A DNA stretch of 64,000 nucleotides from Snodgrassella sp. CFCC 13594 (GTDB lineage: Bacteria; Pseudomonadota; Gammaproteobacteria; Burkholderiales; Neisseriaceae): assembly GCF_001590725.1 (NCBI RefSeq), contig NZ_LQXR01000003.1, positions 1 through 64,000 of the forward strand. The letters are read 5' to 3'. Of the stretch, positions 26,886-30,318 are shown in pieces (the first letter of the stretch is position 1; the number at the start of each line of letters is the position of its first letter). Position numbers and translations under genes: made by a program. Under the pieces are notes generated by a model that saw nothing but the letters and a program-made list of their open reading frames with translations, had not been told where the DNA came from and made no database searches.

Positions 26886-29417
26886 TTAGAGCCGGTTGAC
26901 GCGACGAATTTGAGGAATGGAATGCAATGCTCGGATGATTTTGGTAAGTTGTTCCAAATTTTTGACTTGTAAAGCAAAGCGAAATTCGATGAAGCCGTCG
27001 GTGCCTTCTTGTTTTTTTGACGGAGTTTCTACCGATTCGATGTCGGCTTCGTTGGCAGAAATGGCTTGCGCCATCAATACCAATAGTCCGTGTGAATCCT
27101 GGGCAGCAACGTGCAGGCTGACATGGTAAGTGTTTTGTTGGAAATCATCCCAGCTGGCATCAAGTTGGTTGTCAGGATCCGCTTTCAGAATGTTGCTGCA
27201 GTTATCGCGGTGAATGATGATGCCTTGGTCTTTGATCAACAGTGCCTTGATGGTGTCGCCCGGAATCGGGTTGCAGCATTTGGCTAAGTGGATGCGCCCC
27301 GTCTCGTTACCGGAAATTTTGATGGGGGATAGTTTGACTGTGCCGCCAAAATGCTCTCCTGCTAAATCAGCGATGTGCATGGCTACGGCAATGGGCTGTA
27401 GTCGACCCATACCTACGTCATAAAGAACGTCTTCAAAGGCAGTATTTTTATTGGCTAAATCGGCTAGATACTTCTCTTTTAAGCTTTCAGACAGCAATAC
27501 ATTTTCCGGCAATAGGCTCGATAATGCTTTGTGCAGCAGGCTCTCACCCAGTTTAACCGCATCGGCGCGATTCATGTTTTTAATCTGATTGCGAATGGCG
27601 CTGCGGGCGCGGCTGGATACCGCAAAACTCAACCAAGCAGGATTGGGCCGCGCTTTTTCAGAGGTGATGATTTCTACCGTGTCACCAGTGCGCAATTTGG
27701 TACGCAAAGGCATCATATTTTGATTGATGCGCGTGGCCACGGTTCGGTTGCCGATATCGGTGTGCACCGCATAGGCGAAATCAATGGGGGTGGCACCTTC
27801 AGGCAACACCATGATTTTGCCCTTGGGCGTGAAAATATAGACTTCGTTGGGAAATAAGTCGACTTTAACATGCTCCAGAAACTCCAGCGCATTGTCGCTT
27901 TCTGCTTGTAAATCCAATATGGTTTGCAACCATTGGTGGGTGCGCATTTGTGCTTGGTCGAAACTGCTCTGCTCGCCAGATTTGTACATCCAATGGCTGG
28001 CTATGCCGCCTTCGGCAATGGCGTCCATTTCATGAGTGCGAATTTGCACTTCAATAGGTAGGCCGTAAGGGCCGACCAAGGTGGTGTGTAAAGACTGATA
28101 GCCATTGTTTTTGGGGATGGCAATATAGTCTTTGATTTTGCCTGGTTTGGGTTTATAGAGATTGTGCAAAGCACCCAGAGCCGCATAGCAAGCCGGAATG
28201 TTATTGACGATCACACGAAAAGCATAAATATCCATCACTTCCGCAAAATGCAGATTTTTGGCACGCATTTTTTGGTAAATGCTGAATAGGTTTTTTTCGC
28301 GCCCTTTAATTTGAGCTTCAATATTGGCGCCCACTAGGCGCTGACTAAATGCCCTTAAAACTTTACCGACCACATCTCGACGGTTACGACGAGAGGCTTG
28401 CAGAGCTTTTTCCAATACCCGATAGCGTTCGGGATGTAAGTGTTTGAATGATAAGTCCTGCAGCTCACGGTATACCTGGTTAAGGCCGATGCGATTGGCC
28501 AATTGCGCATAAATTTCCATGGTTTCTTGCGCAATGCGACGACGACTTTCTGGTTTTTTTGCGCTCAGCGTGCGCATGTTATGCAGGCGATCGGACAGTT
28601 TAACAATGATGACGCGAATGTCTTTGGTCATTGCCAAAATCAGCTTGCGGAAGCTTTCCGCTTGGGCTTCTTCTTGGTCGTTATATTCCAGTTTTTCCAG
28701 TTTGGATAAACCGTCTACCATGTCGGCGATGGTTTCGCCAAAAGCATTGGCAATTTGCATTTTGCCCGTGCCCGTGTCTTCCATAACGTCGTGCAGCACG
28801 CCCGCGCACAAGCCTTGCACGTCTATGTGCCATTCAGCCAGTTGAGTAGCCACAGCCATGGGGTGCGTAATGTAGGGTACGCCGCTGTTGCGAAACTGAC
28901 CGTGGTGGGCGGCAATGCCGAAATCACACGCTTGGTTGAGCAGGCTTTTCTCTTCGGTTTTAAGATAGGAGGCGGTTTTGAGCAGATGTTGGCGTGAACG
29001 CTCAATAATGGCGTTGTAAGTGTCTTCGATTTGCTGATGACACAAAGCCAATTGCGCATCAAAATGGGTGGCACCCACGGTATTGATGTGCGCCATGATT
29101 TCTAAGCCTACGTCGCCCAGGCAGGGTTTCAGTTGTGCTGCATCTGCTGTTTCGCCTAAATCTTCCATGGCGATTTGAACCAATACCCCGGCCAGTGCAT
29201 GAACGCGGTGTTGCTCTTGCGCCAATGCGGTGGTCAGCGCAAAGCTACGCATCAGCAAAGAGACTTTATTGCTCGCTTGTGCGTGATGAGATACATACGC
29301 ACAAGCAGTTTCTAACAAAGCATAGCGCTCTTCTTTTTTCAGGTAGCCTGTTTGTGCAAATAAGGCTTCCCGCCATTGTGCTACATGGGCGGGATAGGCT
29401 GTGCTTGCTGGATACAT
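26886..29417 (-). CDS. spoT: Bifunctional (p)ppGpp synthetase/hydrolase SpoT with extended N-terminus
   Basis: 843 residues, about 140 more than typical SpoT. The hydrolase HD domain is intact (AAHHGQFRNSGVPYITHP, then GVLHDVMEDTG with His209-Asp210, and VKLSDRLHNMRTL). The synthetase has MDIYAFRVIV and IPKNNGYQSLHTT. TGS (VYIFTPKGKIMVLPEGATP) and C-terminal ACT domains follow. The extra N-terminus (residues 24-90) can be aligned to residues 150-216 of the same protein: GYLKKEERYALLETACAYVS against SYLKTEEKSLLNQACDFGIA, and GVLVQIAMEDLG against GVLHDVMEDTG. It lacks the HD pair, so it looks like a degenerate duplicate. rpoZ and gmk lie upstream in the same direction, as in many proteobacteria. 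Confidence 0.95.
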   Translation of the reverse strand: MYPASTAYPAHVAQWREALFAQTGYLKKEERYALLETACAYVSHHAQASNKVSLLMRSFALTTALAQEQHRVHALAGVLVQIAMEDLGETADAAQLKPCLGDVGLEIMAHINTVGATHFDAQLALCHQQIEDTYNAIIERSRQHLLKTASYLKTEEKSLLNQACDFGIAAHHGQFRNSGVPYITHPMAVATQLAEWHIDVQGLCAGVLHDVMEDTGTGKMQIANAFGETIADMVDGLSKLEKLEYNDQEEAQAESFRKLILAMTKDIRVIIVKLSDRLHNMRTLSAKKPESRRRIAQETMEIYAQLANRIGLNQVYRELQDLSFKHLHPERYRVLEKALQASRRNRRDVVGKVLRAFSQRLVGANIEAQIKGREKNLFSIYQKMRAKNLHFAEVMDIYAFRVIVNNIPACYAALGALHNLYKPKPGKIKDYIAIPKNNGYQSLHTTLVGPYGLPIEVQIRTHEMDAIAEGGIASHWMYKSGEQSSFDQAQMRTHQWLQTILDLQAESDNALEFLEHVKVDLFPNEVYIFTPKGKIMVLPEGATPIDFAYAVHTDIGNRTVATRINQNMMPLRTKLRTGDTVEIITSEKARPNPAWLSFAVSSRARSAIRNQIKNMNRADAVKLGESLLHKALSSLLPENVLLSESLKEKYLADLANKNTAFEDVLYDVGMGRLQPIAVAMHIADLAGEHFGGTVKLSPIKISGNETGRIHLAKCCNPIPGDTIKALLIKDQGIIIHRDNCSNILKADPDNQLDASWDDFQQNTYHVSLHVAAQDSHGLLVLMAQAISANEADIESVETPSKKQEGTDGFIEFRFALQVKNLEQLTKIIRALHSIPQIRRVNRL

Positions 29418-29441: not shown

Positions 29442-29645
29442 TTATTTTTGTTGATTTAAAAGTTCAACACCAATTTGCCCAGCCGCGATTTCCCGCAATG
29501 CGACAACGGTGGGTTTGTCGTGGTCTTCTTCAACCAAGGGGGTTGCACCATTGGCTAATTGGCGTGAGCGCAAGGCTGCGGTCATGGTGAGATCAAAGTG
29601 ATTGGGAATGCGTCCGATACAGTCTTCTACGGTAATGCGAGCCAT
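29442..29645 (-). CDS. rpoZ: RNA polymerase omega subunit
   Basis: 67 residues: [20 protein letters not shown], then [20 protein letters not shown] and [13 protein letters not shown], the full omega pattern. Omega assists RNA polymerase assembly and in enterics is part of a ppGpp binding site. The spoT start lies 24 bases downstream, so the two are probably co-transcribed with gmk. Confidence 0.95.
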
Positions 29646-29692: not shown

Positions 29693-30318
29693 TCAGGCAT
29701 CTGCCAAGACGCGAATGATGCTTTCTTGTTGTGCGCTTTGAGTCAGGCCGCGAGAACGGATGATGTGAATGAGATCATTTTCGGCTTTATCTAAGTCTTC
29801 GTTGATGACCACGTAGTCAAATAAATAGGCTTGCTCGATTTCATTGCGCGCCTTATCCAGGCGCTTTTGTATCACTTCGGTGCTGTCTGTGCCACGGCCG
29901 GTGAGTCGCTTTGCCAATATGGCAAAAGTGGGTGGCAAAATGAAAATGCTGGTGGCTTCTGGTAATAAGCGGCGTACCTGCTCAGCGCCTTGAATATCGA
30001 TTTCCAGAATGACGTTGAAACCTTGTTGCGTTAAATGAGCGAGCCAGATGTGCTTGTGCCGTAGTAATTGCCATAAACATTGGCGTGCTCCAGAAAGGCA
30101 CTGGCGGCAATCATACGCTCAAATTCACCAGTATCAACAAAATGGTAATGAACGCCGTCTGCTTCACCTTCTCGGGGTGCGCGGGTGGTGTGTGAGATCG
30201 ATACTTTGATGTCAGTATGGTGGCTCAGTAGGCGCGAAACCAAGGTGGTTTTGCCGGTGCCAGAGGCCGCCGAAACAATGAAAATTTGGCCAGTTTTTTG
30301 CATGAGCACATCTGCCAT
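29693..30318 (-). CDS. gmk: Guanylate kinase, frame broken
   Basis: Phosphorylates GMP to GDP. The N-terminal part has the P-loop [11 protein letters not shown] and the GMP site [28 protein letters not shown]. The rest ([18 protein letters not shown], then [13 protein letters not shown]) continues in another frame. One missing base near plus 30046-30048 breaks it. Adding a base restores [20 protein letters not shown] and 208 residues, the expected length. The gene is essential in most bacteria, so this is most likely a base-calling error. The first ATG lacks a clear ribosome site and Met6 is a possible alternative start. Confidence 0.93.

Follow-up and report, generated by a model that had tools for sequence, protein, structure and literature searches.

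Why should a SpoT protein carry well over a hundred residues ahead of its hydrolase domain, where did they come from, and what may they do? The question is raised by a gene in the window, by which we mean the whole 64,000-nucleotide stretch of Snodgrassella sp. CFCC 13594 DNA analysed here. Neisseriaceae SpoTs without an extension are about 715-723 aa long, so this one bears roughly 120-133 extra N-terminal residues. The earlier note had taken them for a degenerate duplicate of the HD domain that could regulate the active copy, as the inactive HD domain does in RelA. The features concerned are the following:

26886..29417, minus strand: spoT, 843 aa, with HD_4, RelA_SpoT synthetase, TGS and ACT_4 domains (open reading frame and Pfam).
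29019..29417, minus strand: N-terminal extension, residues 1-133, read as a degenerate duplicate of the front of the SpoT HD domain.
29088..29408, minus strand: residues 4-110, the core region homologous to the SpoT N-terminus (hhalign).
28428..28970, minus strand: residues 150-330, the true HD hydrolase domain with the helices after it; catalytic residues intact.
29442..29645, minus strand: rpoZ (omega), ending 24 bases before the spoT start.

Pfam places HD_4 at residues 163-312, RelA_SpoT at 372-482, TGS at 526-585 and ACT_4 at 761-842, so that all the domains of a long RSH are present in order, and it matched no family in the first 150 residues. Orthology to SpoT is borne out by the rpoZ-spoT neighbourhood and by a separate RelA-like RSH in the same genome (G000:C24), which is 36% identical. 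From its intact catalytic residues the true HD domain is predicted to be a ppGpp hydrolase, and the synthetase motifs GREK, DIYAFR, YQSLH and EVQIRT look intact. At residues 468-479 of the synthetase domain the window SpoT reads AEGGIASHWMYK; the consensus of SpoTs that have the extension (hereafter carriers), drawn there mostly from Snodgrassella, reads AERGIASYWMHK, with Tyr at a usually conserved His. Upstream of rpoZ-spoT, the guanylate kinase gene gmk (29693-30318, minus strand), which is normally essential, lies in two frames split near 30031-30045. This is an apparent one-base shift and possibly a sequencing error.

On sequence comparison, the extension is securely a degenerate copy of the first part of SpoT's own HD domain. 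When residues 1-150 were compared by BLASTP with the HD region, residues 25-88 aligned with 150-215 (36% identity over 67 columns; E=1e-6, a value that holds for this single comparison), which agrees with the alignment of 24-90 with 150-216 given in the earlier note. Its pairing of the two GVL motifs is nevertheless one residue off, since the alignment is ungapped around MEDLG, and the duplicate, real as it is, is longer than 24-90: the alignment covers about residues 4-110, and the helix pattern takes it up to about 133. Against a profile built from 30 SpoT HD domains without extension, all 17 extensions scored 16.4-36.0 bits, and the best of 10,200 shuffled extensions reached 8.3 bits. A profile-profile comparison had been proposed as a check, lack of similarity being what would count against a duplicate; similarity is what hhalign found, with 96.9% probability and E=1.9e-10 over extension columns 4-110.

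Could this resemblance have arisen by chance, between the helices of the HD domain and those of an unrelated helical domain? Shuffles leave helical character uncontrolled, and the extension profile, when searched against the PDB, hit designed helical proteins (E=0.002-0.01) and not a single RSH chain at E<=10, from which it follows that helical composition inflates the scores. A control with real proteins is for that reason more telling than shuffles. In 300 genomes of the order, the best matches outside the window genome were the N-termini of extension-free Neisseriaceae SpoTs, the top one at E=8.9e-13 over profile positions 3 to 133. Eleven matches outside the window genome had E<=0.001, and those checked by place or frame are SpoT N-termini (one, G135, judged by frame length alone). 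The top matches are in register and include the Neisseriaceae SpoT leader (M..AP...YD..T...R..LF), which normally stands before the HD proper and is also found inside the copy, indicating that the duplication began at or near codon 1. Together with scores far above those of the shuffles and the hhalign result, this makes coincidence very improbable.

The extension is also predicted to fold. AlphaFold2, run on residues 1-341, gave helices at 10-23, 29-48, 52-68, 72-87, 93-110 and 119-148 (pLDDT mostly 88-96), and all six have counterparts in the true HD at an offset of 126-128. The last of them is continuous with the true HD's first helix:

28974..29063, minus strand: long helix predicted at residues 119-148, linking the copy and the first true-HD helix (AlphaFold2, pLDDT about 90-96).

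The structure prediction suggested earlier gives a confidently modelled helical module with its helices in register with the true HD. A structure comparison of the model, covering residues 139-328, returned matches only to the true HD; a full-length model (mean pLDDT 58, poor beyond residue 240) was set aside.

If the copy derives from a hydrolase domain, does it retain the means to act as one? Two positions bear on this:

29247..29249, minus strand: R57, invariant in the 17 carriers; the true HD has the metal-binding His185 here.
29160..29177, minus strand: Q81-I82-A83-M84-E85-D86, replacing H209-D210-V211-M212-E213-D214; the H and D are lost and the ED is kept.

In this alignment register the earlier statement that the duplicate lacks the HD residues is borne out, the H being R57 and the HD pair Q-I in the window copy. 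Across the 17 carriers the positions of His209 and Asp210 are occupied by Lys, Gln or Arg and by Thr, Ile or Ala, respectively, and the Glu-Asp pair is retained (E in 16/17, D in 17/17). The segment of the true HD that holds K273, D276, R277 and N280 has no counterpart in the copy. Set beside an RSH HD domain, the extension thus has the homology and the ED; the metal ligands (H, HD and D) and the catalytic N are absent. With these ligands lost and the K-D-R-N segment missing, the copy presumably has no working hydrolase, and should be catalytically dead. A dead HD duplicate remains a good description, with the correction that only its front part is present, without the second half of the active site. 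One might guess that R57 replaces the metal by an internal salt bridge to E85 or D86. Nucleotide binding by the copy was considered and rejected: the guanine-stacking Arg and the phosphate-site Lys/Arg are without counterpart.

The gene layout indicates that the extension is translated with SpoT, as its start. Its reading frame is open in 17/17 carriers, and rpoZ, found by pattern in 16 of them and not recognised in one, ends 2-36 bases before the extension's ATG; in extension-free relatives the rpoZ-spoT gap is 2 to 254 bases. No in-frame start codon is conserved among carriers between residues 110 and 150, which speaks against a shorter SpoT made from an internal start. It is this lack of a conserved internal start, along with a normal rpoZ-spoT junction directly before the extension, that argues for its translation.

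The full extension was found in 17 of the 79 genomes with a SpoT N-terminal match, out of 83 Neisseriaceae genomes: all 13 matching genomes of the window's genus, the window genome among them, and members of three further genera (g2, g3 and g12). The remaining genomes with a match, including all those of the largest genus, g10, are without it. The same extension does occur in other Neisseriaceae, where the earlier note had proposed to look for it, but it is missing from most of the family. Carriers known by name are Snodgrassella alvi, S. communis, S. gandavensis, Stenoxybacter acetivorans, Neisseriaceae bacterium ESL0693 and a MAG labelled Eikenella; symbionts of bee and termite guts belong to their branch. 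In 300 genomes sampled from the order and 369 from the class, the window genome was the only carrier found; the one class match (G498) spans 56 residues at E=8e-5 in a 110-codon frame. Partial matches with a stop codon in G018, G027 and G033, and similar ones in some g10 genomes, might have been taken for decayed extensions. In the former three they are the upstream rpoZ, read in the same frame, and this candidate was dropped. At loci L021-L023, rpoZ lies in spoT's frame and aligns spuriously with the extension, from query position 59 or 92 onward and with one stop. G009, a genome of the same genus that is 97% complete, has a RelA-like match and no spoT; loss of spoT with relA present is normally lethal, so an assembly gap is most likely.

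When a tree is built from SpoT without the extension, all 17 carriers group together (support 100/98) and a single change suffices: the extension arose once. A tree of the HD halves placed the extension (copy 1) with Neisseriaceae SpoT, separated with 100/100 support from RelA and Burkholderiales SpoT, but the stem of copy 1 is very long, at 4.4 changes per site. Copy 1 does not pair there with copy 2, the true HD, hence insertion of the start of a relative's spoT by recombination is possible; a tandem duplication is simpler. The earlier note likened the duplicate to the RelA HD domain in its possible regulatory role; by sequence the copy resembles SpoT and not the RelA pseudo-HD, against which hhalign gave only 1.1% probability. 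A RelA origin, for which the HMM scores are likewise at the level of shuffles, finds no support in the profiles; in the tree, which is built on short sequences, a clade of copy 1 and RelA was not rejected (p-AU 0.27).

The extension is under purifying selection, and is less constrained than the enzyme. In moderately diverged pairs (extension dS about 0.2-1.3) its dN/dS is about 0.11-0.14, compared with 0.02-0.03 for the HD and 0.00-0.01 for the synthetase; very close or saturated pairs gave higher, less reliable values. Relative to silent changes it evolves about five times faster than the HD. Still, 35 positions are invariant in nine diverse extensions, down to 47% identity with that of the window, and no genome of the carrier clade has a shortened or broken one. 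The invariant charged residues K28, E30, R31, R57, R71 and D86 are the extension's own, most of them being absent from the parent HD.

We then compared the columns after residue 134 between carriers and 30 extension-free SpoTs, retaining those in which the two sets have hardly any residue in common. Nine columns emerged: 161, 167, 177, 180, 198, 287, 291 and 305, in the HD and following helices, and 674. Among eligible columns this is 8/131 in the HD vs 1/286 elsewhere (Fisher p=5e-4; 0.002 at a stricter threshold). Two pairs stand out:

28878..28889, minus strand: N177 (usually K) and V180 (usually E), clade-specific, in the ppGpp-binding R-K-S-G-E-P-Y loop (PMC9974481).
28545..28559, minus strand: K287 (usually M) and S291 (usually K), clade-specific, at the positions of L154 and K158 of Acinetobacter baumannii SpoT (PMC9974481).

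Alignment to solved RSH chains equates N177, K287 and S291 with A. baumannii SpoT K46, L154 and K158 (offsets 131 and 133), and places three clade-specific substitutions at ppGpp-contacting positions. N177 is found in 17/17 carriers and in 0/43 extension-free sequences examined. In the A. baumannii enzyme, K46 and L154 lie at the guanine, and the basic half of the pocket contains K46 and K158; an alanine mutant of L154 loses about half the activity, K46 is redundant, and R45, Y51, E82, D83, K140, R144 and N147 are essential or most important (PMC9974481). The positions of these seven are unchanged in the window SpoT. One extension-free Neisseriaceae SpoT (G016, L024) has the same K287/S291 pair in its ppGpp pocket (AKSTAS), apparently independently of the carriers, so these two residues may be coupled mutually and not to the extension. 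Moreover, the substitutions all map to a single branch, so that they coincided with the extension only once, which implies no causal tie.

How does this protein compare with known systems? After its extension it has the same long RSH architecture as A. baumannii SpoT (7QPR), whose HD active-site residues are conserved, as are those of the window's true HD. That enzyme keeps a dead pseudo-SYNTH domain described as regulatory, whereas the synthetase motifs look intact here; no N-terminal extra copy is reported for it, and its pocket residues K46, L154 and K158 are N, K and S in the window SpoT (PMC9974481). In E. coli RelA a catalytically dead pseudo-HD is retained and controls the synthetase, but it is a single dead domain in the place of the active one (PMC8012599); in the window SpoT a partial dead copy is added in front of an intact HD. 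Mycobacterium avium Rel offers another addition before the HD, a mostly disordered and apparently unrelated N-terminal extension of 50 residues that restrains, and so regulates, both catalytic activities; we met no mention of HD homology for it (PMC12561398). The parental form, extension-free Neisseriaceae SpoT, shares the leader (AP..YD) and the rpoZ-spoT order, and differs in having no extension and mostly RKSGEPY and M/K at the pocket positions. In the open literature searched we found no description of a pseudo-HD extension of SpoT. Dead domains kept as regulators are already known in ppGpp enzymes; what is new here is a long RSH with an added pseudo-HD.

The explanation we prefer starts with the ancestor shared by Snodgrassella, Stenoxybacter and their relatives, a subclade of the Neisseriaceae; in it about the first 126-133 codons of spoT would have been duplicated in frame, most simply in tandem. 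The second copy would have been kept as the active HD hydrolase; the first, without the K-D-R-N half, would have lost its metal ligands, kept its helical pattern and become a pseudo-HD module, with a single long helix leading from it into the true HD's first helix. There it may act in cis: as a structured module that brakes or braces the hydrolase, it would set basal (p)ppGpp turnover or the response to signals. As a whole, we would give this account an even chance. Its last step is suggested by the folded dead copy, the rigid predicted helix, the selection and the changes in the ppGpp pocket, and is made reasonable by the precedents of the RelA pseudo-HD, the A. baumannii pseudo-SYNTH and the M. 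avium Rel extension. The extension probably tunes the enzyme, and a regulatory role as in RelA, such as the earlier note envisaged, is plausible given purifying selection and the concentration of clade-specific changes in the true HD.

The same module could instead serve as a docking platform. Mimicking the HD surface as a structured decoy, it would bind the ribosome or a partner protein and pass signals to SpoT in trans, with no direct action on the hydrolase. Known partners of SpoT and Rel (ACP, Rsd, YmgB and DarB) do bind particular domains, and the six invariant charged residues, mostly foreign to the parent HD, would suit such a surface; yet no partner of the extension is known, and the clade-specific pocket changes suggest a link to catalysis rather than recruitment only. 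We consider this possible, if rather unlikely. A neutral or stabilising leftover, fixed by drift, folded onto the HD and hard to remove without having a regulatory role, would account for the single origin, the faster evolution than the HD, the lack of substrate-binding residues and of a Pfam family. It sits badly with a dN/dS of about 0.11-0.14, with 35 invariant positions among nine extensions as little as 47% identical, and with the absence of any shortened or broken extension in the carrier clade, and we judge it unlikely.

Returning to a pseudo-HD that acts in cis, a bolder version, which we advance only tentatively, is that SpoT evolved a pseudo-hydrolase module from its own sequence on a single occasion, that this module and a remodelled ppGpp pocket co-evolved, and that it provides an intramolecular control of ppGpp breakdown not present in other RSH enzymes. 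Dead catalytic domains as regulators are a theme of ppGpp enzymes, from the RelA pseudo-HD to the Acinetobacter pseudo-SYNTH. Here the dead domain is added beside the working one and can be separated from it by simple deletion, which makes the control of catalysis by a pseudo-HD directly testable. Bee gut symbionts are open to genome engineering by a published method (PMC11389375), so such a deletion looks practical. If this reading is true, a clade that includes several insect-gut symbionts would have its own intramolecular control of ppGpp breakdown.
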